Positions 36,965 to 64,000 of a stretch of 64,000 nt of DNA are shown piece after piece (position 1 is the stretch's first letter; each line of letters begins with the position of its first letter). The notes under the pieces were generated by a model. That model did no database searches and was not told the origin of the DNA. It saw nothing but the letters and a program-made list of their open reading frames with translations. This DNA is from Bacillota bacterium (GTDB lineage Bacteria; Bacillota; Clostridia; Lachnospirales; Lachnospiraceae), in assembly GCA_023395555.1 (NCBI GenBank), contig JAEWYQ010000041.1:1-64000 (forward strand), written 5' to 3'. The translations under genes were made by a program, and so were the position numbers.

Positions 36965-37151
36965 TTACTTACTCCCTATTTAATTGATAACCCGGCTCAA
37001 TATCATCAATACCGCATACTATAAAAAGTTCCTAAAGCTCCAGTGAATTAAGCCGCTGAAGTAAAGATTTTACTTTGAAACAATAAAACGAATAAAGCTA
37101 CCGTAATCCTCGAAAATGGTTGAGCTCCTAACCGTCTTTTTCTATTCTCTC

Positions 37152-38456: not shown

Positions 38457-39862
38457 CAGCTCAACCTCGCTTTTGCTTTAATATAAGGACCGCCAGAGGA
38501 AGTTTTCACAATTTCTTTATACCCTTTCCAACAATAACCCGCACCCTCAAGCTCAACCTTATCGGATACCATACTGATGGACTTTAATAGCTCCGGCACA
38601 TAACCGGTCATGATAACCGGTGAAATAAGGTTACCGGTGAATTTACCGTCCTTGATTTCCCTTCCTACTCCTGCAATACACTGGATCCCCCAATTCTTCG
38701 GATCCTCCATGCCGCTGAACATGTACTCCAGCTGATAACCGTATTGGATGGATGCCAGCATATCCTCATAAGAATCATCCCCGGCTTCAAAGAATGTATT
38801 GGTCATTCTGGCATAGGCCTTCCGCTCAAAGGATTGCCTCCTTCCGTTTCCGGTAGGTATTGTCCCAAGCTTTAGGGCCGACAGCAAATCCGAAATTCCG
38901 GATTTTAGTATTCCATTCTGAATCTCTATCGTATCTGTACCCAGGGTGCCCTCATCATCAAATAAATAGGAGGCCATATGCTTTATCGCTGCGGCTCCGT
39001 CATGCATGGTCGTCTTAACCGAGGCTACCTGTTTGCCGATAAACTCATCACCTTTTGCCCTTTCTTTTACAAACATATCCATCTCAACACCGTGTCCGAA
39101 CGCTTCATGTGCAATCAGTCCGGCAATATCCGGATCACAGATTACTTCATATTCTCCGGGTACTACGGGCTTGGCATCCAGCAGCTTAATGACCTGATCT
39201 ACCACATATTCATATAGTTCTTTGAATTTATGGGTGATTTCATATCCCTGCATGCCGGTTAACGATTTATAATAATCCTTGATTTTCCCTTCTCTTCTGG
39301 CAAATGCGAACATGGAGGATTCGCCCAGCATATAGGACTGCTCCAGATCCTTATTTCCCGATAGGAAGATCTTAGACACATGAATAAAGCTATAGCTTAC
39401 GTTAAAATTAACGATATGCTCCGAGCCGGCCAGAGCTGCATCCCTGACCGCTGTGAGATCCTTCAGAATCTGTTCTGAGGTCAGCTGTTCCGGATCAATC
39501 TCAACCTCTCCGCAGAATTCCCTGGTTATCTCCTCTTCTTGAAGCACAGGATAGGAATTCACTATCATATCCTTTGGAACCCGGTTCAGTTTCGTATGAA
39601 TTTCCTCTACCACGGTATTCAACCTGTCTTCATCAATGTCGTTAAATGAATATTCCGAGTAATTCACACCATTATGTATGCGGACTACAAAGCCTCGTTC
39701 CGCCAGAAAATAATCGGTCACCACAGTTCCTGTCTTTGATACCCGGTAAGTCTTTCCTTTGGTATCCGTACCCAGAACAGATACATACCTGTAGCTCTCA
39801 TACAGCTTGTTAATCAGCTTCCTTAATAGTGGTTTACTGTCCGATAAAAATGTAGATTTCAT
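38456..39862 (-). CDS. tldD: TldD metalloprotease subunit
   Basis: About 468 residues. The zinc motif HExxxH is intact (LIAHEAFGHGVEMDMF) together with the downstream family core (VGREIKDGKFTGNLISPVIMTGYVPELLKSI). TldD forms a heterodimer with TldE in the cytoplasm, with the active site buried so that only unfolded or short peptides enter. Start choice is open: ATG 39862 or GTG 39871, both after GGAAAGGGCGG; a more distant TTG is unlikely. Between this gene and the ABC exporter at 40760 lies a transposase remnant. Confidence 0.9.
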   Translation of the reverse strand: MKSTFLSDSKPLLRKLINKLYESYRYVSVLGTDTKGKTYRVSKTGTVVTDYFLAERGFVVRIHNGVNYSEYSFNDIDEDRLNTVVEEIHTKLNRVPKDMIVNSYPVLQEEEITREFCGEVEIDPEQLTSEQILKDLTAVRDAALAGSEHIVNFNVSYSFIHVSKIFLSGNKDLEQSYMLGESSMFAFARREGKIKDYYKSLTGMQGYEITHKFKELYEYVVDQVIKLLDAKPVVPGEYEVICDPDIAGLIAHEAFGHGVEMDMFVKERAKGDEFIGKQVASVKTTMHDGAAAIKHMASYLFDDEGTLGTDTIEIQNGILKSGISDLLSALKLGTIPTGNGRRQSFERKAYARMTNTFFEAGDDSYEDMLASIQYGYQLEYMFSGMEDPKNWGIQCIAGVGREIKDGKFTGNLISPVIMTGYVPELLKSISMVSDKVELEGAGYCWKGYKEIVKTSSGGPYIKAKARLS

Positions 39863-40129
39863 AACCTTCACATCAATTCCGCCCTTTCCTGCTAACCTTA
39901 TGCGCAATTTATATTGTTGTAATTGGGAAAATAATGATGGTATCGTTTTATTTTAACCACTACTTTAATGCCTCTATCGTCAAGATGTATTTATCAAGGA
40001 TTTCATTGCCGGTGGTGTAGGATTTTCTGTATCTCTGATAGTATAGATTGCATTTGATTTATATATTGAGTGGCTTCCAAAAGATCCCACTTTTTATAAT
40101 TGTGCTAAGGCATAAAATGTGGTTACTGA

Positions 40130-40590
40130 TATCATGTTGGAAACTCTTGGTTTCTTCCTTTTGTTTACTATTGATCCCGATAGTGTTCCGCGCTGTAAAT
40201 GGGCTTATGTATGAATTATGGTGGATATGATCCTAAGTGTAAATTCAGGTGTCCGAAGGCCAACAGGAAACAGGGATGCTTTTGTGAAGCCCCTTGTTCC
40301 CCTGCCAAGTATGGCAGGCAATACATACACAGTTAAAAGATAATCCACGTATTTTTAACATACTGCCAAGAGACAGTGAGGAGTGGGGTAAGGGGTAAGA
40401 CAGAAGAACTTCTGTGGAACGCTCTAACAAGCGTGAGAAACAGGATTATATACTAGAAGACGGCAAATACCGCTCTACGAAGATGTGGTACTGCCGCCTC
40501 TATGGCATCATGATGTGTCAACATCTTGATGCCTGGGAAATGCCCTCGATTAAAGACTTCCAAAAAATGATTATGAAGCATGTCGCTTAA
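40130..40590 (+). pseudogene. Decayed IS transposase, 3' part
   Basis: Pieces in two frames read like the C-terminal part of a DDE transposase: CKFRCPKANRKQGCFC and APCSPAKYGRQYIH, then after a frameshift NPRIFNILPRDSEEWGKG, an in-frame stop, RRTSVERSNKREKQDY and MWYCRLYGIMMCQHLDAW. The TSVERSNKRE plus IMMCQHLDAW combination is a common transposase end. The rest of the 852-nt gap between tldD and the ABC gene (39863-40129 and 40591-40759) holds nothing I recognise. The remnant splits the tldD/E group from the maturase group, so insertion may have separated one ancestral cluster. Confidence 0.65.
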
Positions 40591-40759
40591 AAATGTTTCA
40601 CAATACATATTTTAAAGCATAGTAACCACTATGTCTATTTCTCATGCGAAAAATTACTTTTTTTCCAAAGACACTAGTATTCAATTTTTTAATTTACGTT
40701 AGAATTAGAATTATCTAATTCCAAAAAGATACCATAATTTTTATAGCTCGTATTTTCAA

Positions 40760-42454
40760 TTATCCTTTAAAAATGCCATTTGATATTTGGTAAAAAAGAT
40801 TGCACAATGTCAATGGACGATCGTCATGAGATATCATGATGATTGTTTTATCTGTAAAAAGCTCCTCTATTATTTCCAGAATTATGTCTGCATACTCTTT
40901 ATCAATGAAATTCAGTGGCTCATCAAAGATATATATTTCACAATCCCTGTAAATTCCGCGAATCAATTGAATTATTTTAGCTTCTCCGCTGGAAATATTA
41001 CTTGCATTCTCTTCAATCATCTTTCCCAGAGTAAGCCCTCTGTTTTCGAGGATTCCCACTAATCTTTCCGATATCTGTCTTTTTCCACCCAATATGATAT
41101 TTTCTAAAACCGTTCCATGAAACAGTTGTGGTGCGGCCGGTAACAGGCATATATGTCGCCTGATTGTATCCTCTGCAATTTTTTGATAACTTTTCCCGTT
41201 ATACAGAATCTCTCCCTCATAATCTGTGATAATTGCACACAGCATATTAGCAAAGGTACTTTTGCCGCTTCCATTTTCTCCGGTAATCCCCACCTTTTCT
41301 CCGCGATGTATTACAAAGTCCAAGCCCGAAAATACGATCTTGCTTGCTGTCGAATACCGTAGCCCTCTCACTTCCATCTGTTCAAACGTATCCAATTCTT
41401 CAATCCTGTTATCGTCAGATATGTTGATTCGATCTGAAGCATTCCCTTGCCAGATGGGTTCCTTGCCAGTTGTCTGATCTGTTCTATGTATTTTCTTTCC
41501 TTTCATTCTTAATGCCAGTGTATGTTCACCCAACACTTCCTGTAACCGTTTTTTATGTACCTTGTATTCAGCGAACTCCTTGGGAAAGTCCATATAGAAC
41601 TCTAATGGCGTCCATAACTTAGAAAAATACAGGGACATTGCTAAAATCATCCCTACTGTTAAGGAACTATGAAACACCAGAATGCCTCCCAAAAAATAAA
41701 CCGAACTGGTGAGTAGATTTAACAAGCCGGTGATTAAAGCATAATCATAAACAGTCTCTGTCTTGCAGATTGCCTTTTTCGCATCAAATCTCTTTAAAAA
41801 ATAACTGTCAGCCCTTTTTCCGAACCAGTTGCTTCCATTGTTGACCCTGAGAGAGTAACTGCAATTCAACGCTTCCTCCATATGTGAGTTAATGTCATCC
41901 TGCACGCTTTCCGCCGCATCCGTTAATGTTCCAACCTTATTGGCAAGGATACGGTAAAATATCGCCATTAGAGGAAAGGGAAGCAGCATCAAGGCTGTAT
42001 ATAGAACATTGATGCGCAGCATTGCAAAAATAATCCCACCCATATATATGCCATTCAACCAGAGATTCACTTTTTTCCTTAGTAAGAAATCACGGCATCC
42101 GGATATGTCGGATTGATATCTCTGCAAATAATACCCGGTGCCATTTACACGGAGGATTGAATACGGCATGCTGCTGATGTAATGCAGAAAATCCTGCCGC
42201 ATAAACAACATGGTTCCTTCTTCATAACAAGTGGCAATATAATTGGACGTACATAAGCAGATCATGAAAAGTAACGTAATCAATATGCTCAACACCCCAT
42301 AATATACAATTTGTCGCATATCCTGTTTCGTAACCGCATCCACTAAATATTTCGTCAAAATTGGCAGCAAAATCGTAAATGATCTTTGTCCAATCAAGAA
42401 CAGAATATATAATATCTTTCGCCATTCAGATGTATATTTCTCTACTTTTTCCAT
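40760..42454 (-). CDS. ABC exporter (TMD-NBD fusion), first exporter of the peptide locus
   Basis: 564 residues: a six-helix transmembrane domain (about 10-300), then an NBD with Walker A GENGSGKST, signature ISSGEAK and Walker B YIFDEPLNF. The signature departs from LSGGQ and the D-loop is irregular (LNFIDKEY), so ATPase behaviour may be atypical. There is no peptidase domain. It lies 145 nt downstream of the Cys-Cys peptide gene, with a strong hairpin between them, and probably exports the modified product. The weak expression expected past the hairpin would keep exporter levels below precursor levels. Confidence 0.8.
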   Translation of the reverse strand: MEKVEKYTSEWRKILYILFLIGQRSFTILLPILTKYLVDAVTKQDMRQIVYYGVLSILITLLFMICLCTSNYIATCYEEGTMLFMRQDFLHYISSMPYSILRVNGTGYYLQRYQSDISGCRDFLLRKKVNLWLNGIYMGGIIFAMLRINVLYTALMLLPFPLMAIFYRILANKVGTLTDAAESVQDDINSHMEEALNCSYSLRVNNGSNWFGKRADSYFLKRFDAKKAICKTETVYDYALITGLLNLLTSSVYFLGGILVFHSSLTVGMILAMSLYFSKLWTPLEFYMDFPKEFAEYKVHKKRLQEVLGEHTLALRMKGKKIHRTDQTTGKEPIWQGNASDRINISDDNRIEELDTFEQMEVRGLRYSTASKIVFSGLDFVIHRGEKVGITGENGSGKSTFANMLCAIITDYEGEILYNGKSYQKIAEDTIRRHICLLPAAPQLFHGTVLENIILGGKRQISERLVGILENRGLTLGKMIEENASNISSGEAKIIQLIRGIYRDCEIYIFDEPLNFIDKEYADIILEIIEELFTDKTIIMISHDDRPLTLCNLFYQISNGIFKG

Positions 42455-42557
42455 ACAAGCACACCACTTTCTATATATTGAAGTTTTGGTATTTACCTAT
42501 ACTCAATATATCATAACATTCCTTAAAATTCCATGCACGTAATTAGCCAAAAGCAGA

Positions 42558-42591
42558 CGAAGAGGAATTATTTCAGCATAATTCCTCTTCG
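42558..42591 (-). terminator. Hairpin between precursor peptide and exporter
   Basis: A 13-bp perfect stem, CGAAGAGGAATTA (42558-42570) against its complement (42579-42591), with an 8-nt loop. Such attenuators after a precursor gene commonly reduce expression of downstream maturation genes. No long U run follows on the minus strand, so it may be a processing or stability element rather than a full terminator. Confidence 0.7.
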
Positions 42592-42599
42592 TTATTGCC

Positions 42600-42689
42600 C
42601 TAGTGCCTGCCTGAGCAGCAGCTATCCCTGCTTACTTTGCTGCTAATATGAATCAAATCTGGGGTACTTTTTTTCTTGATAACAATCAT
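42600..42689 (-). CDS. Candidate RiPP precursor, 29 residues with C-terminal Cys-Cys
   Basis: A perfect AAAGGAGG site eight bases upstream drives an ATG at 42689. The peptide has a basic start (MIVIKKKSTPDL), a short leader-like middle and a core ending SRDSCCSGRH. It lies on the same strand between the radical SAM/SPASM maturase and the ABC exporter, flanked on both sides by strong hairpins, which is the usual place for a peptide precursor. The two adjacent cysteines with Ser and Asp nearby could be thioether donors. It matches no precursor family I can name, and it is shorter than most. Precursor role is an inference from context. Confidence 0.55.
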   Translation of the reverse strand: MIVIKKKSTPDLIHISSKVSRDSCCSGRH

Positions 42690-42735
42690 CTTGTTTGCCT
42701 CCTTTCGTAATATGGTAGTTTTATTGTCACACTAT

Positions 42736-42786
42736 ATATTATGATTAAAGCGTCAAAAGCACCTTTTGACGCTTTAATCATAATAT
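42736..42786. terminator. 24-bp perfect inverted repeat between maturase and precursor
   Basis: Arms 42736-42759 and 42763-42786 are perfectly complementary over 24 bp with a CAC loop; the core is AAAGCGTCAAAAG. It follows the maturase stop by 76 nt and precedes the precursor start by 47 nt. It could terminate maturase transcription, be a processing site that frees the precursor mRNA, or be a relic of a small mobile repeat. Confidence 0.65.
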
Positions 42787-42862
42787 GTATTACACTATTT
42801 ATTACATCGAAGTTTGACCAAACTCTATATTGTATACCTCTAATTTATTATCTGCATTAATA

Positions 42863-44209
42863 TCAAGAAATTATATCCTTATAATATTCCATGGTTATTT
42901 TTCGATTAAGGTTCAATAGTAAATCCTTTCTACATAATATATAATCCATATCACCTCTTGCTATCATGGCATCAAATCTACAATCACAATGACAAATAGG
43001 TATAAATGGACATTTTTTACGAAAGCATTGTTCATATAATTCAAAATTCATCAGCGAAGGGATTTGAAAAAATGCATCTTTTCCCTCCCATTGTCCTGAA
43101 CTTTCATTGATCCGTCCAACAGAGCTTAAACATTTGTATATGTTTCCATCCGGTGATACCACAAATGAATGTTTCAGTTTTCCTATGCACATTGAACTAA
43201 ACAAGAAAGAATCATCAATTTGAAATCCTAACTTTAATGCTGCTTTATATAATTCTAAGTATTTTTCAATAAAACTATTGTTATTCACTATAGTCTTAGA
43301 AATATAGTTATATGCATCATTCCCTTCAACTGTTTGTGCGATATTTCCAAAGGAAAGATTTAATCTGTCCTTTGAAAAATTATCAGCTAAAAAAATCAAC
43401 AAATCGGGAATTTCTTCAACATTTTCATTGTCATAATTGATTCTCAAATCAATACTTTTTATAAGATCTTTTTCTAATATATATTTTAAGTTATGTACAA
43501 TTGTCTCAAATGTTTGTCCACCTGATTTTAACCGTCTTCTCTTATTATTAATCTCGCCTACTCCATCCAATGTGGCCTGAAGCCGAACCCAATTATATTT
43601 ATTTAACAGTGCCGCTTTCTCTTCATTTAATAAATAGGTATTTGTAACAATGCTTGTATACATTTTTATATTGTGTCTCTTTAGCAATTCTTCTACATTT
43701 TCAAGAAAATAAGGAACGACTGACCAATTACATGTTGGTTCCCCGCCATGTAATGTCAACATTAATTTCCGAAGTTGTTTGTTTGAATTTAAATATTCTT
43801 CCATTCTTGCTAAAATTATAACTACATTTTGCTTTGTCATCATAAAGGATCTATCAACACCATCTTGGTAACAATAGGGGCAATTAAAATTACAAGATGT
43901 TGTTGGTAAAAAATGCACATGCATTGTATCGTCATTATTCCACTGCTCATGTAATAACTTTAAAAAATTTTCTTGTTCATCAAACGTGTCTTCTATAATA
44001 AATCCATTGTCCACAAGTTGCTCATATATTTCTGTTTTCCCATTGTTTTGGAAATATTTCATTATTTTATCCACAGTTAAGTGATGGATATCTTTATATA
44101 TTGTTCTTTCAACGCCCAATATAGATCCATTAAGTGTATTTTTAATAATCACATGCTTCTGCGTATCCATATCATCATATGTATCAAACATGAACATCGT
44201 CCATTTCAT
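42863..44209 (-). CDS. Radical SAM/SPASM peptide maturase
   Basis: 448 residues. An N-terminal segment of about 95 residues (possible peptide-recognition region) precedes the radical SAM core with the 4Fe-4S motif CNFNCPYC (C106, C110, C113). Then come the glycine-rich SAM motif LTLHGGEPT and the SPASM domain with its cysteine set (MCIGKLKHSF ... GNIYKCLSS ... CFRKKCPFIPICHCDCRFD ... ILC). SPASM enzymes of this layout form thioether or C-C links in ribosomal peptides. AGGGAGG lies 11 nt before the ATG. The peptide substrate is inferred to be the downstream 29-residue product. No neighbour suggests a quinohemoprotein or formylglycine (anSME) role. Confidence 0.85.
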   Translation of the reverse strand: MKWTMFMFDTYDDMDTQKHVIIKNTLNGSILGVERTIYKDIHHLTVDKIMKYFQNNGKTEIYEQLVDNGFIIEDTFDEQENFLKLLHEQWNNDDTMHVHFLPTTSCNFNCPYCYQDGVDRSFMMTKQNVVIILARMEEYLNSNKQLRKLMLTLHGGEPTCNWSVVPYFLENVEELLKRHNIKMYTSIVTNTYLLNEEKAALLNKYNWVRLQATLDGVGEINNKRRRLKSGGQTFETIVHNLKYILEKDLIKSIDLRINYDNENVEEIPDLLIFLADNFSKDRLNLSFGNIAQTVEGNDAYNYISKTIVNNNSFIEKYLELYKAALKLGFQIDDSFLFSSMCIGKLKHSFVVSPDGNIYKCLSSVGRINESSGQWEGKDAFFQIPSLMNFELYEQCFRKKCPFIPICHCDCRFDAMIARGDMDYILCRKDLLLNLNRKITMEYYKDIIS

Positions 44210-50035: not shown

Positions 50036-50084
50036 TTGCTTTTTGCCTCGTCATGTGATATAATAAATTATACACATGACGAGG
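50036..50084 (+). promoter_or_regulatory. IS promoter with flanking inverted repeat
   Basis: TTGCTT (50036-50041), 17 bp, TATAAT (50059-50064). A 12-bp perfect inverted repeat, CCTCGTCATGTG at 50046-50057 and its complement at 50073-50084, brackets the -10 box and ends next to the ribosome site. It may be an operator for the transposase or a hairpin blocking translation of read-through transcripts. Confidence 0.65.
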
Positions 50085-50095
50085 AGGCGGTCAAA

Positions 50096-51709
50096 ATGGC
50101 TATTATATACCAGACAGATAAAAGATCCGGAATCACTTATGCATATGAGGCTGAATACTTCTGGGATAAAGAAAAACAGCAATCACGCTCAAAGCGAAGA
50201 TTAATCGGCCGTGTTGATACCCAGTCAGGAGAAGTTATTCCTACGGATGGACGTATGAAGAAGTCCAGGGAGTCAGCAAATAAACCCACCAAGAAACGTG
50301 GGCCGGTTCCGCCCGAATGCTCTGCGAGGAATTTCTATGGTGCAACCTATCTGCTGGATGCCATTGGTGATAAGCTTGGGATTACACAGGATCTGAAGAC
50401 CTGCTTTCCTGACACTTACAAACAGATACTATCGATAGCCTATTACCTCATCCTTGAGGATAGCAATCCGCTTTTCCGATTTGAAAAATGGGGGATCCTT
50501 CATAAACATCCCTTTGGCAAAGACATTCCCTCACAAAGAAGCAGCGAGCTGTTTATGAGCATCTCTGAGGAGGAAAAAAATCGTTTCTTTGCCTGCCAGG
50601 GGAAACGGAGAATCGAAAATGAATACTGGGCATACGATACTTCGTCTATCTCCAGCTATTCTCAAGCATTGCGCCAGGTTCAGTACGGCAATAATAAAGA
50701 GGACGACAGGCTTCCACAGTTGAACCTTGCACTTGTGTTTGGTGAACAATCCAATCTGCCATTTTACTTCCGTAAACTTGCGGGAAATATACCGGATGTC
50801 AAAACAGTGCAGCATCTGATTGCTGATCTGGATCAGCTTGGATTCAAAAAGGTCAAGCTGGTCATGGATCGCGGGTTTTACAGCGAAGATAATATCAATG
50901 CTTTATACCGGGAACACCTGAAATTCCTTGTGTCTGCCAAGACATCCCTTTCCTTTATTCGCAAGGAACTGGATACGGTTTATGATGATTTTCGTACCTT
51001 TGAATACTATGATGATAATTATGAACTGTATTCAACAACCATACAAAGTGAATGGAATTATACACAAAAACGCCCGTACAAAGGGGATACGATTGAAGAA
51101 AAACGCCGTATCTACATTCACCTGTATTATAACATCGATAAAGCTGCGGAGGATCAGAAGATCTTCGATCGAAAGCTTATGGAACTCAAGAAGGAACTTC
51201 TGGACGGCAAACGAAAACCGGAGCACGAAAAGCTGTATAAAAAGTATTTCATTGAAAAGTCAACTCCGGTTAAGGGAACCCAGGTCAGTGTAAAAGAAGA
51301 GACCGTAAAAGAAGCAAAACGCTACTATGGGTTCTTTACCTTAATTACGAATGAAACAATGGATTCCATCACTGCACTGGGGCTCTATCGGAACAAGGAT
51401 GTAGTGGAAAAAGCGTTTGGCAATTTAAAAGAACGTTTAAACATGAGGCGTACCCTAGTCTCCTCCGAGAAAAGTCTGGATGGGAAATTATTTGTTGAGT
51501 TTGTCGCACTCATTTATTTATCTTATATCAAGAAACAGATGCAGGATGAAAAGCTATTCAAGGACTATACACTGCAGGGAGTGCTTGATAAGCTGGATAT
51601 CATTGAATGCTTTGAAAATCCTGGTCAGGACCTTCGTGTCGGGGAAATCCTTGAAAAGCAAAAAGACCTATACCTTAAGCTTGGAGTGGAGCCGCCCGTC
51701 TCGTTATGA
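50096..51709 (+). CDS. IS1634/IS4-like DDE transposase
   Basis: About 537 residues. The catalytic core includes LVMDRGFYSEDNI (second D region) and the late helix YRNKDVVEKAFGNLKERLNMRR, characteristic of IS4-superfamily enzymes with the YREK-like motif. The frame is complete and undamaged, so the element may be active. The ATG at 50096 follows GAGGAGG; a TTG at 50036 lies inside the promoter. Family placement (IS1634 versus a neighbouring IS4 group) is not certain. A hairpin (GCCCGTCTC/GAGACGGC) covers the last codons. Confidence 0.85.
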   Translation: MAIIYQTDKRSGITYAYEAEYFWDKEKQQSRSKRRLIGRVDTQSGEVIPTDGRMKKSRESANKPTKKRGPVPPECSARNFYGATYLLDAIGDKLGITQDLKTCFPDTYKQILSIAYYLILEDSNPLFRFEKWGILHKHPFGKDIPSQRSSELFMSISEEEKNRFFACQGKRRIENEYWAYDTSSISSYSQALRQVQYGNNKEDDRLPQLNLALVFGEQSNLPFYFRKLAGNIPDVKTVQHLIADLDQLGFKKVKLVMDRGFYSEDNINALYREHLKFLVSAKTSLSFIRKELDTVYDDFRTFEYYDDNYELYSTTIQSEWNYTQKRPYKGDTIEEKRRIYIHLYYNIDKAAEDQKIFDRKLMELKKELLDGKRKPEHEKLYKKYFIEKSTPVKGTQVSVKEETVKEAKRYYGFFTLITNETMDSITALGLYRNKDVVEKAFGNLKERLNMRRTLVSSEKSLDGKLFVEFVALIYLSYIKKQMQDEKLFKDYTLQGVLDKLDIIECFENPGQDLRVGEILEKQKDLYLKLGVEPPVSL

Positions 51710-51954
51710 GACGGCGGGAATCCAGGATACAAGAATTTTAAAGTAAAATAAAAGCTGCAGTAAAGGATGTCGCCCTTGGCTGCAGCGTGTTTTGCGTGTT
51801 TTATAGCTTTCCAAATCTGTATTATGGTATAAATCAAATAATTGATTACTTTTGCTTAGACAAACCTGGCATATGTAATAGGAATAATCAAGGTCTATAA
51901 ACATAGTACCCTCATCTTTCTCAGGAAAATTAACAATAGTAATCAACCAGTACT

Positions 51955-52092
51955 TTAATTCTTATTTTTTCTTTTTTTGCGGATAATCAACAGAACAACA
52001 ATAACAATCAAAATAATAACAATTACAGATAACAAAAGAGGTGCTTTCCATACATTGGTATCAGTAATAATAACTCTCTCTACATATTTCAT
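51955..52092 (-). CDS. 45-residue single-span membrane protein, copy 1
   Basis: The frame encodes MKYVERVIITDTNVWKAP, then a membrane helix of Leu, Ile and Val (about 18-37) and a strongly basic tail (RKKRKNKN). It is nearly identical to the copy at 54563 (two differences: T12V and V33A). Here the upstream ABC gene is decayed, yet this frame is intact. Its place in a peptide-immunity region suggests an immunity or accessory membrane peptide; no family is recognised. Confidence 0.6.
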   Translation of the reverse strand: MKYVERVIITDTNVWKAPLLLSVIVIILIVIVVLLIIRKKRKNKN

Positions 52093-52288
52093 ATCACTTC
52101 ATTCCCGCCCTTTCTTGGTTTAAAAAGATTACTTTATCAGCAATTTCTGAGTATTCAAGTATGTATTGTTAATATTATGATATGATTTTCCTTTAGAATA
52201 TTGAAAATATTAAAAATAGTTGAATATTTACTTTATTGAAAGAGGCTGTTGGTTCATCAAATAAGATGACATCTAAGCCTTTAATTAA
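52089..52288 (-). pseudogene. Remnant of ABC ATPase 3' end, copy A
   Basis: Matches the C-terminal NBD coding part at 54697-54900 (EPTAS ... EYSEIADKVIFLN) but with several one- or two-base deletions that break the frame. It ends with the same GTGATATGA junction into the 45-residue protein. Confidence 0.75.
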
Positions 52289-52692
52289 TTAAAGAAGTTT
52301 TTTATGCCCGGTCTGCAACGGGGGCTTAAAGGTTCGGGATAAACCTAATTGCTTTCTCTTTCATTATTATGACCATTCCTTTCCGCTACGCTACAAGGCA
52401 CAAAAGGGACATGAAAATCGATTGCCGTAACACAGCATTCAAATGATTGTGCAGAAATTGTACTTGAGGAAACAGGCACACTACAGAGCACGTGGAGGAG
52501 AGTGGGCACAGCCCTTACGCTGACCAGTGCCTTTAACCCTGCAAATTTATCTTTGGAGAGACAAACCACTTCAATCCTACAGTGAGCATCGCTAAGCTAC
52601 TTATCTCTTAATCTTATGAGATACAATAAAAGTATCGTGGAAGCTGAATAAATCAACAAAAAACGGTTAAATGATAAAAAAGCCTTGAACAG
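52289..52692. other. Unassigned stretch
   Basis: About 400 nt without a convincing gene. A 74-codon frame on the minus strand (52345-52569) has no recognisable family and no good ribosome site. Its higher G+C than the flanks suggests a fragment of an unrelated gene brought in by recombination. Confidence 0.3.
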
Positions 52693-52891
52693 TCAATCGT
52701 CCATGTACATGCTTAGGGAATCTCTGTTATAATGACGTTCATTGACAAACCTTTCAAGCTTTTCATACTCACGAGCTTCTATAAGTTTATAGACAATTTT
52801 AACCCAAAGATCAGTAAGCATATTATTATCTGTAACATCGGTGTTCAGCGAGAAATCGCTTACACGTTTTTCAACAACAATAAGCATTGCG
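52677..52891. repeat. Direct repeat, copy C (3' part of SdpI-like gene)
   Basis: About 215 bp repeated at 54242-54456 with around 90 percent or more visible identity. Copy C is part of the intact SdpI-like gene. Confidence 0.85.
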
Positions 52892-53202
52892 AAAACGAAC
52901 ACAAATCCTATTCCGTTACCCACAAATACCGCGATATCAGTATTAATGTCGAATATTAATATAAGAATTTCAGCAAATACGGCTAATATTAATGATACAA
53001 ACCCAAATTTGACAGTTGTGCAGTAACCGATAATCTGCGCAAACAACCATTTCTCTAATGATTTTTTCGCAGCGGGAACAGAAATGCCATTAGAGCCTAT
53101 CTCCATTTTTATATGGCTTTTTAAGTAGAACCCTGTCGCAAGTAATGTAAAAGGAACCACCAGTGACAACATAACATTTAAGATTACAGTAAGGATATTC
53201 AT
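52693..53202 (-). CDS. SdpI-like membrane protein
   Basis: 169 residues with three membrane helices (about 3-25, 55-85, 90-112). Between the first two lies a stretch like the SdpI motif (IGSNGISVPAAKKSLEKWLFAQIIGY), which in that family is GxRTxxxxxSxExWxxA. A charged C-terminal tail follows. SdpI gives immunity to the SDP cannibalism toxin in Bacillus. AAAGGAGG precedes the ATG, 15 nt after the ABC fragment stop. The similarity is moderate and the arginine of the motif is not clear, so I treat immunity as likely rather than proven. Confidence 0.5.
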   Translation of the reverse strand: MNILTVILNVMLSLVVPFTLLATGFYLKSHIKMEIGSNGISVPAAKKSLEKWLFAQIIGYCTTVKFGFVSLILAVFAEILILIFDINTDIAVFVGNGIGFVFVFAMLIVVEKRVSDFSLNTDVTDNNMLTDLWVKIVYKLIEAREYEKLERFVNERHYNRDSLSMYMDD

Positions 53203-53217
53203 TATTTCCTCCTTTAA

Positions 53218-53855
53218 TCAGACCTTTCCCATTTTTATTATCACATCCTCATCACCTATCAATGACGGATCATGTGTAACAATTATAATTATTTTATTCG
53301 ATTTGATTCTTTGCAGAATATCTGCAAAAATCTTTTTTCCTTCTGATTCAAGATTAGCCGTAGGCTCATCAAAAATCATTACGTGAGGGTCTAAAACAAG
53401 CTGTCTGATAATGGAAATTTTCTGTTTTTCTCCACCGGACAGATTATTTTGCTGAACATTTATCTGACTATCAAGCAACAGTTCTTTGTCTACCTTTCCA
53501 TTGCAAAACGAAAAGGCATCAAGGTATTTTTCGAGGTCATTTCCGCTGTTTCCAAACAAGGTAAGATTTTCATTTATCGTTCCACAAATCAGACATGTAT
53601 CTTGTTCGGAATATCCCATTACCTTTCTCTTTAACCATATCATATCTAACTCTCGGATATCAATACCGTCAATAAAAATAGTCCCTCTCATTTCGTCCAC
53701 GTAACATCCGAGAATAAGGTTTAAAAGTGTAGATTTTCCAACACCGTTTTTACCCACGATACAGTATATATTCCCCTTCTTAAAAGTGTATGAAAAATTA
53801 TCCAAAATCGGTTTGTCGTATCCAAAACTTACGTAATTGAGGCTAATTGTATCTG
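53218..53855 (-). pseudogene. 5'-truncated ABC transporter nucleotide-binding domain
   Basis: The frame reads as a full NBD: it enters at DTISLNYVSFGYDKPILDNF, then Walker A GKNGVGKST, signature LSGGEKQK, Walker B VMIFDEPTA and THDPS. The transmembrane domain that should precede it is missing. Just upstream (53856) the sequence changes to unrelated DNA, and no good start codon exists; a TTG at 53805 is the only candidate. Thus it is the 3' end of an exporter gene cut by rearrangement. Whether a free NBD is still made is open. Residue order suggests a bacteriocin-type exporter. Confidence 0.7.
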
Positions 53856-54241
53856 GTTTCCATGAAACCGGAAACCAATGCCCTAAAGAGTTCGATCATA
53901 AGGGTAGCAGCTCCTGTGAAAGAAAAAGTCCAGTTCTGCTATTACCGGTTAGTGAAAGGGATCTGTGGCATACTATCGTATGCAAGAGAGGGCGTCAGGC
54001 TCTGGTTCAGGACAAAACGTCGTGCATACCGCCAACTTTGCCTTAAGCTGATCATTTAAATAGATAAAAAACAATTTTCCCAAGGCCCGGTTTCAGCGGG
54101 GCTTATTAAAGTATCACTAATCTAAAGCTGTTGTTATAATTTCTTTCAAAAAACGCTAGATTGGCACTTTGGTACGATTTATTCATCTTTCAGTTGCAGT
54201 TTACGGAAACTCAAGTTATATACTAACACCAGGTTAAATGA
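53856..54241 (+). other. Unassigned insert with orphan frame
   Basis: A plus-strand frame at 53862-54059 (KEKVQFCYYRLVKGICGIL ... TKRRAYRQLCLKLII) has base composition unlike its surroundings and may be a transposase tail. It starts exactly where the ABC domain is cut. From 54060 to 54241 nothing is recognisable. Confidence 0.35.
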
Positions 54242-54456
54242 TGAAAAAAAGCCTTGAACAGTCAATCGTCGATGTACATGCTTAGGGAATCTCTGTTATA
54301 ATGACTTTCATTGACAAACTTTTCAGGTTTTCCATACTTACGAGCTTCTATAAGTTTATAGACAATTTTAACCAAAGATCAGTAAGCATATTATTATCTG
54401 TAACATCGGGTATTCAGCGAAAAATCGCTTACACGTTTTTCAACAACAATAAGCAT
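54242..54456 (-). pseudogene. Truncated SdpI-like gene copy (repeat copy D)
   Basis: Carries the last 70 or so codons of the SdpI-like gene, including the MYMDD end, with frame-breaking changes, then joins abruptly to repeat copy B at about 54456. Confidence 0.8.
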
Positions 54457-54900
54457 TTTTGCTTAGACAAGCCTGATGCATATAATAGGAATAGTCAAGG
54501 TCTAAAATAACATAGCACCCTCATTTTTCTCAAAAAATTAACAATAGTAATCAACCCGCACTTTAATTCTTATTTTTTCTTTTTTTGCGGATAATCAACA
54601 GAGCAACAATAACAATCAAAATGATAACAATTACGGATAATAAAAGAGGTGCTTTCCATACATTGACATCAGTAATAATAACCCTCTCTACATATTTCAT
54701 ATCACTTCATTCCCGCCCTTTCTTGGGTTTAAAAAGATTACTTTATCAGCGATTTCTGAGTATTCAAGATTATGTGTTATTAATATTATAATATGATTCT
54801 CCTTTAGAATATTCAAAATATTAAAAAATTGCTGAATACTTACTTTATCAAGAGAGGCTGTTGGTTCATCAAATAAGATGACATCTGAGCCTTTGATTAA
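54457..54900. repeat. Long direct repeat, copy B
   Basis: Counterpart of 51850-52288. It contains copy 2 of the 45-residue membrane protein and the end of the chimeric permease/ATPase gene. Confidence 0.85.
54563..54700 (-). CDS. 45-residue single-span membrane protein, copy 2
   Basis: Same protein as at 51955 with V12 and A33. Its ATG overlaps the stop of the preceding ABC gene (ATGA), so the two are translationally coupled. That coupling ties the peptide to an ABC immunity or export function. N-terminal segment about 17 residues, one membrane helix, basic tail probably in the cytoplasm. Confidence 0.62.
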   Translation of the reverse strand: MKYVERVIITDVNVWKAPLLLSVIVIILIVIVALLIIRKKRKNKN

Positions 54901-57189: not shown

Positions 57190-60100
57190 TTAGAACTTTT
57201 CTAATCTATTACACATGTTTACGTTTCTTCCTTCTTTTATATTTATTACTTTATGAGCGTCCGCTATACAAGTATCCCTGTGAGATATTAATATGACGGT
57301 ATGATTGTATGATAATTTCTTAATTAAATTATTAATTATTAATTCAGTATCATTATCAAGAGATGAAGTTATTTCATCAAATAAAAACATATGAGGTTTT
57401 CTTAATAATGATCTTGCTATTGATAATCTCTGTTTCTGTCCTTGTGATAAATCAATACCTCCTTCACCTAATTTTGTATTATAACCATTAGGAAGTGTCA
57501 TTATAAAATCATGAATAAATGATTCTTTACATGCTTCATATATATCCTCATCAATTGCATTTGTATTAGCTAATGACAAGTTTTCCTTTACCGTTCCTGT
57601 TATCATAAAAAAATCTTGTGTCACATAAGATATATTTTCGCATAAGATTGTTCGAGGTATACTTCGTAATTCAACCCCATCAATATAAATATTGCCTGTA
57701 TAATTATCAAATAATCCAAATAGCAAATTAAATATAGTAGTTTTGCCTGATCCGCTTTCTCCAATAATAGCTGTTATGTTATTTGGTTGTATTTTAAGAC
57801 TTAAGTTTTGCAGAGTATATACTTCTTCTCTTTCATTATATGTAAATGATACATTATCAAAAATAATGATCCCATCAAATATATTATCTTTTACATGATT
57901 ATTTATATCTTTATCCATTGTCGGATAAAAAATTAATAAATCAAAAACTCTTTTTAATGAAATTATGGCTTCTTGTACTTCTGTATTTAGTCTTGATATT
58001 TTATATAAAGATCCTGTAAACATAGATGAGTAAGTATTAAAAGCAACCATTTCACCCAAAGTTAATTTATTAATAAATATCAAATATGCACTTATAATAA
58101 TTATTATAATATAGCTTACAAAATTAATAAAATAGGATAAGGTATTTGCAGTGGTATTAATAACAACTTTATCTACTCCTATTTTATATAGTCGCTGTAT
58201 ATGTTGTTGATATTTTCCCCCTATCATATTTTCAATATTAAAAATTTTAATCGCTTTAAACCCTTGTAATGTTTCTTGTAAAAAAGATAGATAGTAATCT
58301 TTTCCGTTCTTTAGAATTTTTTCCTTCTTACTAATTATTTTACCAAAAAAGAAAAAAATAACTAATGAAATTGGAAACATTGAAATTAGTATTACAGAAA
58401 GTATCCAATTTATTTTAAATAGAATGAAAGCTATTATAAATGCACTTGCAACATCTATAATTATTAAAACTTTACTGGTTAATATATTGGAAAATGCTCG
58501 AACATCTTGTTCAAGTTTTTCAATAAATTCTCCTTTTTTACTTTTCCAGAATTCATACAATGGTAAGTTAAGTATACCATCAAAAATTTGTTTACAAATA
58601 GTTAATTCAATACTACAAGCTATTTTTATCATTAAATAACTTTGTATAAAATTTATAATAATACCTATTAAAAATATTCCAATAATAATTATCATTATCC
58701 TAGGTAATATATCATAATTATGTAATGTAATATTATCTATAATATCTCCAAATAAAAGTGGTTGTATGTTTTGTAATATAGTATAAATAATTATACAAAT
58801 GAACGAAAATGCAAATCTAATCTTATATGGTTTTAAATATTTAAATGTACTTAATAAAATATCTTTAATACTATCTGTATTAATTTTAGGTATAATAACA
58901 TCATTTTTAGCTTTTACTTTTGCTATCCAAGATTCATTTATAAACTTAGAATTTAATACAATAAACTTACATTTTTTTTGATATAATATTAGTATTACAC
59001 TAATTGGAAGTATTATAAATATAACAGCTATAAATCTATCAAATGTTGAATTAACAGTAGTTTGAGAGAAAAGAGCTGTGGAGTTAATGATTACATTATA
59101 AATAATATGAGCTAAAATAATCGGTAATAATCCTACTCTAATATAGATGATTGCGTATATAATGGAAGGTATAAATAATTCTATTATTCTTGCGTACCAG
59201 GGATATACAGGATAAAAAGTGTGTAATAAACCGAAAATTATAGCTTGAAATAGAACAACTATAAATATAATACTATTTTTAAATTTCATTTTTTTACTAA
59301 TCAGAATAATACTCGCTATTGGAATAGCTCTACAAAGAAGCTCTTCCATAATTCCTGCTCGAATTGCACTTAATACCGGAGTTAACCATGGTAGATAAGT
59401 TGTATTTACTATGAAAGAAGAATCCCCTGATGGTGACCACCAATCAAAATATGAGGTCGTTATATTAAATAATATAATCGTATATAATAACTTAAATATT
59501 ACTAATATATAACCTATAATTACTTGATTGAATATTTGTTTTGATTGAAGCACCTCACGATTAAGTATGCTCCACAATTGTATATGTTTGGGAAAAGCTT
59601 TTCTAGTTAATCCTTCTGCTACTATAACTACAATGGTAAAAATAATAACATTAATAACAAATTGCATTATAATACTTAATATAAGTGAACTATAACTTAC
59701 TGATTTTGGACTTAGTTCATTAGCCGGTAATTGATTTAATTGAGATATTAATTCGAAGCTTGCCATTATTGTTCCTAAAAAAATTGATTTTCTAATAATT
59801 ATAAAATGATTTTTAATTAAATATATAATTCCCAATAAGCAGCAAATAAAAAAATAAAACAAATACATTGATAAGTTTCCGATTTGATAAATTATATTAC
59901 TAAATATTTTTAAATTATTATATTTATTTTTGAATACACTTGGTATATTAATATATTTAAATAATGATGTTATTTGATCTCCTACTACCGATATATTTAC
60001 TCTTAGTGGTATACCTTCTAGGTTTTTATTTTCATATGTATAATTATATTGTACACAACCATTATTTAGGAATAATTTATTACTATCTATAATTATATAA

Positions 60101-60570
60101 TTAGAAAGATTTGTATTTAAATTGTTTTTTGCATATTCAATTATTTTTTTCTCTAATATATTAGTATTTGTATTATTGTAATTTTCTTTATTTAACATTT
60201 CATTGACAAACCCGTAAGGATCCCCTTGTGGTGTCAGATATATTTCTGATTTATTCCCATTATTATTTATAAATTTTATAATCCATTTATACGGAGAATA
60301 AATATCGGTTTTTGATATTTCGTCCACTTTCAGTTTATTAAATTCTAAATAAGCTTTTTCATCTTGGTTCATATCAAATGATGCCATAATTTTACATCCA
60401 TTATAATTTATATTCAACTCATCAGCTAAAATGATAGCATACTCTATAGCTGTTTCTTTATTAATAGAAATTTTTACATCTGAAGTAGAAATTAATTTCA
60501 AAAACAAAAAATAGGCCAAGAAAAGAAGTAATATTAAACTCAATATACTATATTTCTTTAGTTTTCTCAT
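57190..60570 (-). CDS. CPBP intramembrane protease fused to ABC exporter (SkfC-like plus TMD-NBD)
   Basis: 1126 residues in one frame. Residues 1-250 hold a signal-anchor and an extracytoplasmic domain. About 240-535 is a multi-helix CPBP (CAAX/SkfC-type) protease with all three motifs: E409-E410-xxx-R414 (MEELLCR), F446-xxx-H450 (FGLLH) and H488-xxx-N492 (HIIYN). From about 570 on is a complete ABC exporter: six-helix domain, Walker A GESGSGKTT, signature LSQGQKQR, Walker B LFDEITSSLD (Pro replaced by Ile). The N-terminal half corresponds in layout to SkfC of the sporulation killing factor operon. The fusion would join leader cleavage and export in one protein, in the way C39-peptidase ABC transporters do with a different protease. 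It follows the permease by 22 nt. Confidence 0.88.
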   Translation of the reverse strand: MRKLKKYSILSLILLLFLAYFLFLKLISTSDVKISINKETAIEYAIILADELNINYNGCKIMASFDMNQDEKAYLEFNKLKVDEISKTDIYSPYKWIIKFINNNGNKSEIYLTPQGDPYGFVNEMLNKENYNNTNTNILEKKIIEYAKNNLNTNLSNYIIIDSNKLFLNNGCVQYNYTYENKNLEGIPLRVNISVVGDQITSLFKYINIPSVFKNKYNNLKIFSNIIYQIGNLSMYLFYFFICCLLGIIYLIKNHFIIIRKSIFLGTIMASFELISQLNQLPANELSPKSVSYSSLILSIIMQFVINVIIFTIVVIVAEGLTRKAFPKHIQLWSILNREVLQSKQIFNQVIIGYILVIFKLLYTIILFNITTSYFDWWSPSGDSSFIVNTTYLPWLTPVLSAIRAGIMEELLCRAIPIASIILISKKMKFKNSIIFIVVLFQAIIFGLLHTFYPVYPWYARIIELFIPSIIYAIIYIRVGLLPIILAHIIYNVIINSTALFSQTTVNSTFDRFIAVIFIILPISVILILYQKKCKFIVLNSKFINESWIAKVKAKNDVIIPKINTDSIKDILLSTFKYLKPYKIRFAFSFICIIIYTILQNIQPLLFGDIIDNITLHNYDILPRIMIIIIGIFLIGIIINFIQSYLMIKIACSIELTICKQIFDGILNLPLYEFWKSKKGEFIEKLEQDVRAFSNILTSKVLIIIDVASAFIIAFILFKINWILSVILISMFPISLVIFFFFGKIISKKEKILKNGKDYYLSFLQETLQGFKAIKIFNIENMIGGKYQQHIQRLYKIGVDKVVINTTANTLSYFINFVSYIIIIIISAYLIFINKLTLGEMVAFNTYSSMFTGSLYKISRLNTEVQEAIISLKRVFDLLIFYPTMDKDINNHVKDNIFDGIIIFDNVSFTYNEREEVYTLQNLSLKIQPNNITAIIGESGSGKTTIFNLLFGLFDNYTGNIYIDGVELRSIPRTILCENISYVTQDFFMITGTVKENLSLANTNAIDEDIYEACKESFIHDFIMTLPNGYNTKLGEGGIDLSQGQKQRLSIARSLLRKPHMFLFDEITSSLDNDTELIINNLIKKLSYNHTVILISHRDTCIADAHKVINIKEGRNVNMCNRLEKF

Positions 60571-60592: not shown

Positions 60593-62158
60593 TCAATTTT
60601 TTTTAATTTTCTGTATAAGTTTAGTTAAAATCAAACACGATATCGATATATTAAAATATAAAAATATTATATGAATATTTTTAATGTTATTTGAAATATT
60701 AATAAAATCTAATGGATAAATTTTTAGTATTGGACCTATATACCATAATAAAACAAAAATAACTTCTGAATATTTAGAATTATTAGTTAATGAATTTATG
60801 ATTAAAGACAAAGATGATATTAACATAGCACTTGAAATAAGCAAAATTATACTTAAGTAGTAATGATTATCAAACTTTATAGACTTAATAATAAAAAAGC
60901 TGTTTAAAAGAATATATAGTATAGTATTAGAAAGAAACATTGATAATATATGATAACCTGTATAGTAATGAGTTGAAGAAATAATAGGAGTTATCCTGTT
61001 TTTATACTTCATTACTTTATTTCGAGACCATAATGGTAAAGTACATAGAAAAAGAATAGAAGGTAAAATTTGATTATCATAAATAAAGTTTAAAGAATAT
61101 AAAATTAAAATTATTACATACCATATCCAGAAATATCCATAAGCATTGGCTTTCATATCTGATATAATTAAATTATATAAACTAAATTTTAATTTAATGG
61201 ATTTACATGCATTGTAGTCATTCTTGTTTTTTTCTATTTCATTATTATAATTTTTATCATTATTTAAAAAAATATCCAATTCTAAAATACTATAATCTGA
61301 AGTTTTGCATATAAATGTCCTTCTAAAAAGTATACTTGCAATTATACAAATTATAACTGCGAAGAAAATACACCATACAAATCTAATATAAAACATCTGG
61401 TTAACCCAATCAATACCATTCCATATAAAGGTTGAACTATATTTATCATTACCTATGACTGTATATGACATATTATAATCAGGTATTACATTTTTTAAGT
61501 CTTTCATTATATTCGGTAATATATAACTTGTGCCTATTAAATCAAACACAAACGGCTTGCCTTTAAATGATAGAGATACAAGTGTAATCCATATAAAGAA
61601 ATATATAATATTTCCTAAAGAACCACTTAATACAAAGTTACTATCAAATAAAACTGCAATAGCAGAAATTACAAGTATAGTCGGGGTAGTTATAACTATA
61701 AAAGGCAAAAATATATTATATAAAATTATATTCATATCCTCACCACGAATCACCTGAAGAAATATACACATTATTGACATAATAATTGATATGATAGATA
61801 AGTTTAGAAAATTGCTAAAAAACTTTCCTATACAATATTCTATATTGCTTATAGGGGTACTGGCAATAATTAATCCAATGTTGTTCTTATTATCTTCCGA
61901 TATTGAATTCCTTATGTAATAAAAACCTATTAAACTTAAAAACATAGAGGTTAATAAGGCCACACCGCTTCCTATCCATGACGAATTATAGATGCCTCGA
62001 TACCCATTAAAGTTAAGTACATTTATAATCGAATTGTCTGAAGGCAGATACATTATTGACAATACTATACATAGACCGACAGTACACAAAAATGAGTATT
62101 TTCTAGATTTATGAATAACATTAGTATAAGCTATTCTAGCTATTGTTTTATAATTCAT
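60593..62158 (-). CDS. ABC-2 type permease (SkfF-like)
   Basis: 521 residues with about twelve membrane helices and one large external loop (about 200-260, FVFDLIGTSYILPNIMK). The size and the ATPase pairing fit SkfF, the permease of the sporulation killing factor operon, which exports or protects against the toxin. Its start overlaps the ATPase stop by 4 nt. Very A+T-rich with many ATA codons for Ile, unlike the 13-30 kb genes. Confidence 0.75.
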   Translation of the reverse strand: MNYKTIARIAYTNVIHKSRKYSFLCTVGLCIVLSIMYLPSDNSIINVLNFNGYRGIYNSSWIGSGVALLTSMFLSLIGFYYIRNSISEDNKNNIGLIIASTPISNIEYCIGKFFSNFLNLSIISIIMSIMCIFLQVIRGEDMNIILYNIFLPFIVITTPTILVISAIAVLFDSNFVLSGSLGNIIYFFIWITLVSLSFKGKPFVFDLIGTSYILPNIMKDLKNVIPDYNMSYTVIGNDKYSSTFIWNGIDWVNQMFYIRFVWCIFFAVIICIIASILFRRTFICKTSDYSILELDIFLNNDKNYNNEIEKNKNDYNACKSIKLKFSLYNLIISDMKANAYGYFWIWYVIILILYSLNFIYDNQILPSILFLCTLPLWSRNKVMKYKNRITPIISSTHYYTGYHILSMFLSNTILYILLNSFFIIKSIKFDNHYYLSIILLISSAMLISSLSLIINSLTNNSKYSEVIFVLLWYIGPILKIYPLDFINISNNIKNIHIIFLYFNISISCLILTKLIQKIKKN

Positions 62159-63036
62159 TTTTTACCACCCTTCAAACATGATGTTAAATATAAATAAGCA
62201 TCTTCAAAACTAGGTAACATTTTAGTGGCATTGTATTTAATCGGATCTTTTGAAATTGCTCTTACTTTTTTACCTTTTAAAGTATTAGAAATATTGCTTA
62301 TAACTAAATCGTCTCTAAGTTTATTATATTCCTCAATGGTAAACTCCGCTTCCCATACTTTCCCTTCAGCTTTTAATAATAATTCATCTGGAGTATCATA
62401 ATATAATAAATTACCCTCAATCATTATGGCCACCTTGTTAGCAATAGATTCTAAATCAGCAACTATATGAGTAGAAATAATAACTATTCGATTTTCCGAA
62501 ATATTAGATACCAAATTTCTAAATTCAATTCTTTCTACAGGATCTAGTCCATTTGTAGGTTCGTCTAAAATTAATATTTTAGGATTATTCAATAAAGCCT
62601 GTGCTATACCTAGCCTTTGTTTCATACCACCCGAATAATATCCAATTGGCTGTTTTCTTATTTCATATAAATTTAATAAATCAAGAAGTTCAGATATTCT
62701 GCTTTTAATAATACTAGCGTCGATACCTTTTAAAGAACCAATATATAATAAATTTTCAATAGCATTTAAGTTATTATAAAACCCAAAGTCTTGCGGCAAA
62801 TAACCGAGTACTCTTCTAATTTCATATGGTTTTTTAACAATATTCGTTTCATTATAAAGTATCTCCCCACAGTCTGGTTTCTCTATTGTAGTTATAATTT
62901 TTAATAGTGAAGTTTTTCCTGCTCCATTAGGTCCAAATAAGCCCAGTATACCAGGTTTAATATTAATGTTTAAATTCTTTATAGCATGAACTTCATTATT
63001 ATAAATTCTTTGTATATTTCTTATATCCAGATTCAT
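62155..63036 (-). CDS. ABC ATPase (SkfE-like)
   Basis: 293 residues. Walker A GPNGAGKTS, signature YSGGMKQRLGIAQ, Walker B ILILDEPTNGLD and H-loop STHIV are complete. A C-terminal extension (VWEAEFTIEEYNKLRDDLV) is shared with SkfE/Bcr-type ATPases. GAGGAG lies about seven bases before the ATG. It starts 19 nt after the radical SAM gene and is coupled to the permease. Confidence 0.85.
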   Translation of the reverse strand: MNLDIRNIQRIYNNEVHAIKNLNINIKPGILGLFGPNGAGKTSLLKIITTIEKPDCGEILYNETNIVKKPYEIRRVLGYLPQDFGFYNNLNAIENLLYIGSLKGIDASIIKSRISELLDLLNLYEIRKQPIGYYSGGMKQRLGIAQALLNNPKILILDEPTNGLDPVERIEFRNLVSNISENRIVIISTHIVADLESIANKVAIMIEGNLLYYDTPDELLLKAEGKVWEAEFTIEEYNKLRDDLVISNISNTLKGKKVRAISKDPIKYNATKMLPSFEDAYLYLTSCLKGGKK

Positions 63037-63055: not shown

Positions 63056-64000
63056 TTAATGGATACATTTTGCAACTTTTACTAATTCTAATGTATCTAA
63101 TGCATTATATTTAATTGATTTGCATTTAGAATTTTTTGTGGTTAATTTATGATAAGGACAACCGCCCATACAAGCGGGAAGTACAATACAATTGGTACAA
63201 TCCTCATTACTAAAAGGATCATATAGTAACCATTTATAAATATTATGGGTAAAAGAATTATGTAGGATTGATCCTACCCTTTCTTCTTCTCGTCCTATAT
63301 GGTTCCAGCACTTGTATAAATCTCCCTTCGGGTCTATTACATAGGAGTTAGAAGAAACAGCTCCACATATAGAGGGGTTACACGATGGAATTAATCCAAT
63401 CTTAAAACCTTTATTTAATGCTTCTAACTGAAACTTAATCTCCTCAACAGAAAAATCACTAATTGTCATACAACTTGATTCTATACATCCATTGTTTATA
63501 TCATCTACAGGAGCCAAATATAAGCTCACTTTACCTTTTAGATTGCATTCTTCAATATAATTTAACAGTTCATATGTATGATTTATATTAGTTTTATCAA
63601 CATTAATTCTAATGACAATTGGAATGTCGAGACATACATCTTTTATATTATTAATAATTCTATCAAAAGTCCCTTCTCCGTTATATAAAAGTCTTCTTGA
63701 ATCATGTATACTACGTGGTCCATCAATTGTTACTTGCACTCTCTCAATTTTTAATTCTTTTAGTTTTTCAACATTCTTTTTGGTCAAATAATAACCGTTA
63801 GTTACGATTGAAGCATAATAAGCAATGTTATCGTTTGTAATAGTTCTAATAGAGTTCGTCATATTTTCTATCTCATCTAGTGCAAGTAATGGCTCTCCAC
63901 CGTACCATGAAATACCTATGGAACTACATCCAAAAGAGTGTTTTTTTATAAATCTAATTACTTCTTGCTGTACTTCATAATTCATCCGATTTTTTCTATA
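63056..64000 (-). CDS. Radical SAM/SPASM maturase (SkfB-like), N-terminus beyond window
   Basis: The C-terminal 310 or so residues are visible. They include the glycine-rich SAM-binding motif WYGGEPLLA, VTNGYYLT, the VTIDGPRSIHDSRR strand, and a SPASM domain with cysteines in ICGAVSSNSYVIDPKGDLYKCWNH and DCTNCIVLPACMGGCPYHK. The 4Fe-4S CxxxCxxC motif must lie upstream of the edge, and the frame stays open there. Gene order with SkfE-, SkfF- and SkfC-like products points to a thioether-forming (sactipeptide) enzyme; the precursor gene is probably just outside. Confidence 0.85.
   Translation of the reverse strand, partial: YRKNRMNYEVQQEVIRFIKKHSFGCSSIGISWYGGEPLLALDEIENMTNSIRTITNDNIAYYASIVTNGYYLTKKNVEKLKELKIERVQVTIDGPRSIHDSRRLLYNGEGTFDRIINNIKDVCLDIPIVIRINVDKTNINHTYELLNYIEECNLKGKVSLYLAPVDDINNGCIESSCMTISDFSVEEIKFQLEALNKGFKIGLIPSCNPSICGAVSSNSYVIDPKGDLYKCWNHIGREEERVGSILHNSFTHNIYKWLLYDPFSNEDCTNCIVLPACMGGCPYHKLTTKNSKCKSIKYNALDTLELVKVAKCIH

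Follow-up and report, generated by a model that had tools for sequence, protein, structure and literature searches.

A predicted CPBP-type protease fused to an ABC exporter beside a radical SAM gene in a Lachnospiraceae contig

Described systems and the locus under study

In yeast, the CPBP-type protease Rce1 and the a-factor ABC exporter act on one peptide as two separate proteins. CPBP (Abi) proteins also act as bacteriocin immunity factors, MroQ and the M79 family are of the CPBP type, and public annotation contains CPBP fusions with ABC-2-type permeases. SkfC, encoded in the skf cluster, is one that we take to be a CPBP protein. PCATs are described as carrying an N-terminal C39 protease and an ABC exporter in one chain, in a source that also presents MroQ as an integral membrane metalloprotease (M79) that removes the leader of AgrD (PMC10885120). 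The skf cluster of Bacillus subtilis is described as comprising a radical SAM enzyme, an export/resistance pair and SkfC, named as the putative protease (PMC8172795). A paper of 2025 calls the prokaryotic CPBP members largely unexplored (PMC11980579).

We analyzed a stretch of 64,000 nucleotides (the window) in which a gene on the minus strand (57190..60570) encodes a protein of 1126 residues, composed of a membrane anchor, a PepSY-like domain, a CPBP-type bundle, and the transmembrane domain (TMD) and ATPase domain (NBD) of an ABC exporter. As in the C39 PCATs, a putative protease and an exporter share one chain, and the predicted logic is close to theirs; however, the cysteine protease of PCATs is unrelated to the membrane-embedded CPBP half of the window protein, which in addition carries a PepSY domain. 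SkfC is a separate gene product, whereas the CPBP part encoded in the window is fused to the exporter, and where Rce1 and the a-factor exporter are two proteins, the window has a single chain. MroQ of the agr system offers a parallel as a membrane protease for a peptide leader, but it is not known to be fused to a transporter. Our best reading, judging from sequence comparisons, is that the window protein would be an exporter for a radical SAM-modified peptide that acquired a CPBP protease, and an independent analogue of the C39 PCATs. Should cleavage of the cargo by the CPBP half be real, then unrelated proteases gave rise to coupled leader removal and export on two or more occasions; moreover, the operon allows a guess at the substrate of the CPBP half in the window.

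The sequence-only reading of this DNA knew of no described example. Among the matches listed in the open-licence literature we also found no description of a CPBP-exporter fusion, but a second fusion has been deposited: protein P0001 of Ruminiclostridium cellobioparum, entered as an ABC transporter ATP-binding protein, a name that mentions the transporter only.

The fusion gene and its CPBP site

The reading frame runs from ATG to TAA over 1126 codons with zero internal stops, as had been read before, and a ribosome-site-like GAGAGG lies 8 bases 5' of the ATG. The G+C content of the frame is 23.5%. The length of this stop-free frame at such a G+C content, together with the presence of the same fusion in P0001, puts it beyond chance. 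An assembly or reading artefact was nevertheless considered, and nothing was found in its favor: the G+C content is steady along the frame (19%-28% per 100 codons), and P0001, which represents 2 clustered sequences found on 14 contigs of several sources, aligns with the window protein across both halves, which makes an assembly join very unlikely. We regard the probability of an artefact as negligible.

From the N-terminus (all coordinates within this gene refer to the minus strand), the predicted model starts with a membrane anchor helix, basic residues first (residues 3-26; 60493..60564). This is followed by a PepSY/YpeB-like domain, which shows the PepSY fold and is predicted to lie outside the membrane (residues about 33-210; 59941..60474), and by a CPBP-type membrane bundle assigned from Pfam and the model (residues 211-540; 58951..59940). 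A linker (residues 541-586; 58813..58950) leads to the exporter half, for which Pfam analysis of the whole protein detected the transmembrane domain PF00664 (residues 587-855; 58006..58812; E 7.6e-37) and the ATPase domain PF00005 (residues 920-1069; 57364..57813; E 3.4e-28). All five ATPase motifs sought are present, namely Walker A (937), the Q-loop (985), LSQGQ (1041), Walker B (1061) and the H-loop (1096), and the complete TMD-NBD exporter described in the sequence-only reading was thus recovered. That reading also recognized the CPBP half, but it overlooked the PepSY domain, as well as the missing second half described below. On the whole fusion protein, Pfam listed no C39 family.

The model predicts ten membrane helices ahead of the ABC half; for this count, its helix 211-253 was shortened to the hydrophobic part, 230-253. 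The predicted inner loops contain three (425-430), two (326-343) and ten (534-583) Lys or Arg residues, with none at 254-258 and 480-481, and the predicted outer loops contain none (375-395, 449-459 and 497-505) or one (280-292). From helix count and loop charges together, the PepSY domain is predicted to be extracytoplasmic and the ATPase to be on the cytoplasmic side, which is the orientation required of an exporter. In the model from which the helices were taken, 31 of the 33 ten-residue blocks of the CPBP bundle have a mean pLDDT of 86-98, and the remaining two have values of 68 and 74. A full-length model has a mean pLDDT of 68.7 overall, with low confidence in the ABC half.

When residues 1-561 were scanned alone, Pfam placed PF02517 at residues 394-494 with an E-value of 4.7e-10 and 40.1 bits, against a cut-off of 22.4. 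The family was absent from the listing of the whole protein at E<=0.01. The earlier expectation that domain searches would yield both families therefore held for the front half given by itself, but not for the full-length scan. The EExxxR, FxxxH and HxxxN/D motifs sit in predicted membrane helices of the CPBP half. They read EELLCR (residues 409-414; 59329..59346), FGLLH (residues 446-450; 59221..59235) and HIIYN (residues 488-492; 59095..59109), so that E409, E410, R414, F446, H450, H488 and N492 are all present; the motifs had been reported as intact, and the residue numbers then given for E409 and H450 were correct. E410 and R414 are found in 37/37 aligned rows, and E409, H450 and H488 in 36/37 each. 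Position 446 is F in 31/37 rows and W in 6/37, and position 492 is D in 31/37 and N in 6/37. Jointly, E409, E410, R414, H450 and H488 are kept in 36 of the 37 rows, including both ABC fusions.

A Foldseek comparison of the front-half model with the PDB gave zero matches at E<=0.001. A second structure comparison (VIA) listed PepSY-type chains, the PepSY domain filling the list, and no Rce1 entry was among the matches listed. A PDB sequence search (query A4) returned 9 rows, none of them credible (best E 0.27).

Relatives of the front half

P0001 is a protein of 1691 aa with the same fusion of a PepSY-CPBP front end to an ABC exporter, and it differs from the window protein by an extra PepSY-TM half. 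In BLASTP alignments of the two proteins, identity was 56% over 565 columns for the ABC halves and 39% over 561 columns for the front halves. A second match of the window protein's front PepSY region, to residues 637-866 of P0001 (E 1e-9), points to an internal repeat. The second PepSY-TM half of P0001 is located where the window protein has its linker; about 540 residues of P0001 are missing there, and both flanks remain alignable. The stand-alone relatives have both PepSY-TM halves, which makes it simpler to assume that the window lineage lost the second one.

A search with residues 1-570 identified at least 8 proteins among the 7999 candidates sharing most words. ABC domains were present in P0001 only, and the other seven (1094-1148 aa) align along P0001 as far as its ABC half. 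A profile search identified at least 48 proteins among 7996 candidates scored, of which, according to precomputed Pfam assignments, one had ABC domains, which was P0001 again. The window's own protein was absent from both result lists. The fusion is real and rare, with two cases from two protein searches. In plasmids, the front half gave one weak place in tblastn at E<=10 (E 0.4), inside a 542-aa protein scoring PF02517, and in phages zero matches were obtained at E<=1e-5. The viral_contigs search (query A2) returned 9 pattern matches, with zero relatives among them.

Eight loci were returned for the front end, and five of these were scanned by Pfam. SpoIIE was detected in L024, L025 and L028, and L022 and L023, which are full-length stand-alone front ends, showed no family at E<=0.01. 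By eye, and for frames of at least 150 aa, the neighbors of L023 (in L031) include no radical SAM or ABC gene, which speaks against our best reading. The search behind these eight loci covered 395 genomes from the phylum to which G001, the genome that carries a Bacteroidales locus, belongs; at least 43 of them had a front-end match at E<=1e-5, with at most two candidates scored per genome.

L024 (1471-3903) has a front end like that of the window protein (PF02517, 30.8 bits), but its output domain is a SpoIIE phosphatase, and the residues at positions 409, 450, 488 and 492 are G, M, Q and V. The CPBP catalytic residues have been lost, and L024 is likely a pseudoprotease sensor. This fusion from Bacteroidota indicates that the module can serve without proteolysis, which again counts against our best reading, and the PepSY-CPBP half of the window protein could likewise tune the exporter as a sensor or gate, with no need for proteolysis. 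The stand-alone relative P0003, from which E409, H450 and H488 have also been lost, fits such a role. However, the whole catalytic set is kept by both known ABC fusions, and we consider a purely sensory role unlikely. The front end is thus found with and without the putative catalytic residues, and their retention in both ABC fusions, set against their loss in the PepSY-CPBP-SpoIIE fusion, favors an active protease in the window protein. The two ABC fusions are set apart by the second PepSY-TM half. Comparison with the SpoIIE fusion, whose catalytic residues are gone, makes the question of protease or sensor directly testable.

The exporter half, its gene neighborhood and a possible mechanism

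Upstream of the fusion gene, and on the same strand, lie genes for a permease, an ABC ATPase and a radical SAM enzyme, in that order. The permease gene (60593..62158, minus strand; 521 aa; ABC-2-like according to a weak Pfam match under the cut-off) stops 22 bp short of the fusion gene, its start overlaps the ATPase gene (62155..63036, minus strand; 293 aa) by 4 bp, and a gap of 19 bp separates the latter from the gene for a radical SAM/SPASM peptide maturase (63056..64000, minus strand), which is cut by the window edge. The part of the maturase inside the window is closest to TIGR04334 (Clo7bot; 239.1 bits) and TIGR04463 (237.5 bits), both under the full-length cut-offs, and its SPASM domain scores 58.4 bits with TIGR04085, over the cut-off of 27. 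No precursor peptide gene is visible within the window, which ends inside the radical SAM gene. Downstream of the fusion gene, 286 bp precede another ATPase-permease pair, followed by decayed ABC pieces and duplications. The genes of the apparent operon have a G+C content of 23-30%, versus 41-55% in 1-kb steps at 14-32 kb of the window, which suggests that the AT-rich block with the fusion gene came by horizontal transfer.

The ABC half had 502 plasmid records at E<=1e-40 in tblastn searches, and the top two matches were exporters of Sarcina sp. JB2 (36.4%) and P. bifermentans (33.7%). We then constructed an unrooted tree of 16 exporter rows, hand-picked from the matches and the window, in which five rows, including both sactipeptide-locus exporters, were flagged for unusual letter make-up. 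In this tree, the two fusions pair (100/99), and the plasmid exporters of Sarcina and Paraclostridium join them in a group of four rows (100/99), apart from which the two C39 exporters pair with each other (96/96). The C39-type exporter profiles TIGR03796 and TIGR01193 match below cut-off, and only from profile positions 161 and 155 onward. A genome_contigs scan with a single sequence gave six loci (five Pelagibacteraceae, one Bacteroidales) that match residues 904-1098 alone, which is the ATPase part, and these were rejected as relatives.

The Sarcina plasmid p2 locus consists, in order, of a radical SAM gene, an Apre_1838-family sactipeptide precursor, an ABC ATPase, two permeases and the exporter. 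On the P. bifermentans plasmid, a putative bacteriocin precursor is located ahead of the exporter, and upstream is a 308-aa frame matching the C-terminal part of RumMC. Both precursors are 66 aa long; against TIGR04067 (cut-off 45), the Sarcina precursor scores 56.4 bits, over, and the Paraclostridium precursor 40.8 bits, under. The exporters of these RumC/Apre_1838-type loci resemble the window protein in their grouped exporter half (34-37% identity) and in lying in radical SAM loci, but they have no fused protease, and their radical SAM genes are RumMC-like, whereas that of the window is TIGR04334/TIGR04463-like.

These loci bear on the possibility that the exporter half carries other cargo, such as a lipid, a drug or an unmodified peptide, and that the radical SAM neighborhood is incidental. 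ABCB1-type chains are the best sequence matches of the exporter half among solved structures, with the a-factor exporter also among the matches, and the region downstream of the fusion gene is a mosaic, in which duplications and decayed ABC pieces accompany an IS-like transposase; both would suit such a cargo. On the other hand, the two nearest unfused relatives in the plasmid collection belong to sactipeptide-type loci, and the spacing with the radical SAM gene is tight. We therefore judge a different cargo to be quite improbable. As for the mosaic region itself, positions 51850-54900 contain an AT-rich segment in two copies that have diverged (their pieces are 84-96% identical). Both copies include a 45-aa membrane peptide as well as ABC ATPase pieces in decay, and a transposase-like frame (50036-51709) adjoins them.

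Alternatively, the CPBP half may act as an Abi-type module that protects the producer itself, while the chain exports a peptide whose leader is left unprocessed. Abi immunity is known, and unfused genes of the CAAX endopeptidase family are present about 6 kb downstream of ctpM in the P. bifermentans Clo7bot region and also, alongside an existing C39 exporter, in a bacteriocin locus of P. sordellii. Nevertheless, fusion to the exporter suggests action on the cargo, and the separate ABC ATPase-permease pair could already provide protection; a self-protection module is in our opinion rather unlikely.

We give roughly even credence to the reading that the fusion protein is a maturation-and-export machine for a radical SAM-modified, ranthi- or sactipeptide-like peptide, with the CPBP half cutting at the membrane. 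According to this proposal, the radical SAM/SPASM enzyme would modify a precursor, whose gene is probably located just beyond the window edge; the exporter half would move the modified peptide out, the fusion protein probably acting as a homodimer; and the CPBP half would act at the membrane to cut the leader or some other segment. The PepSY domain on the extracytoplasmic side may hold or gate the substrate or the protease, and the separate ABC ATPase-permease pair would most simply serve self-protection, or else a second export step. Points against this reading, besides L023, L024 and P0003, are the absence of a visible precursor gene, the immunity role of CPBP (Abi) proteins, the hand-picked and partly flagged rows of the exporter tree, and fold searches among whose listed matches there was no Rce1 structure. 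A more specific version is tentative, possible rather than probable: an intramembrane glutamyl protease and an external PepSY gate would be built into the exporter as a second independent protease-exporter, unrelated to the C39 protease of PCATs, that cuts a radical SAM-modified peptide inside the membrane or during its exit. With respect to the peptide-processing exporter proposed in the sequence-only reading, the exporter kinship (100/99), the radical SAM/SPASM gene in an apparent operon, the conserved CPBP site and the lack of a C39 domain agree with it, and cutting of the leader by the CPBP half is the part that we infer.

Several other loci were observed in the course of these analyses. 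The P. bifermentans Clo7bot locus (L013, 5627-11333) contains seven annotated Clo7bot Cys-rich peptides followed by the radical SAM gene ctpM, a gene for a peptidase-MA-like protein (weak Pfam match) and an exporter gene. Within the window, positions 35096-44209 (minus strand) form a second possible RiPP locus, which includes a radical SAM/SPASM-type gene at 42863-44209 (its best NCBIfam match, TIGR04463, stays under cut-off) together with a TldD/PmbA-like protease pair at 37152-39907 (also under cut-off) and two frames resembling ABC exporters. Finally, a 2534-aa frame at 3778-11382 (plus strand) has, by eye, a subtilase-like start followed by YD/RHS-like repeats.
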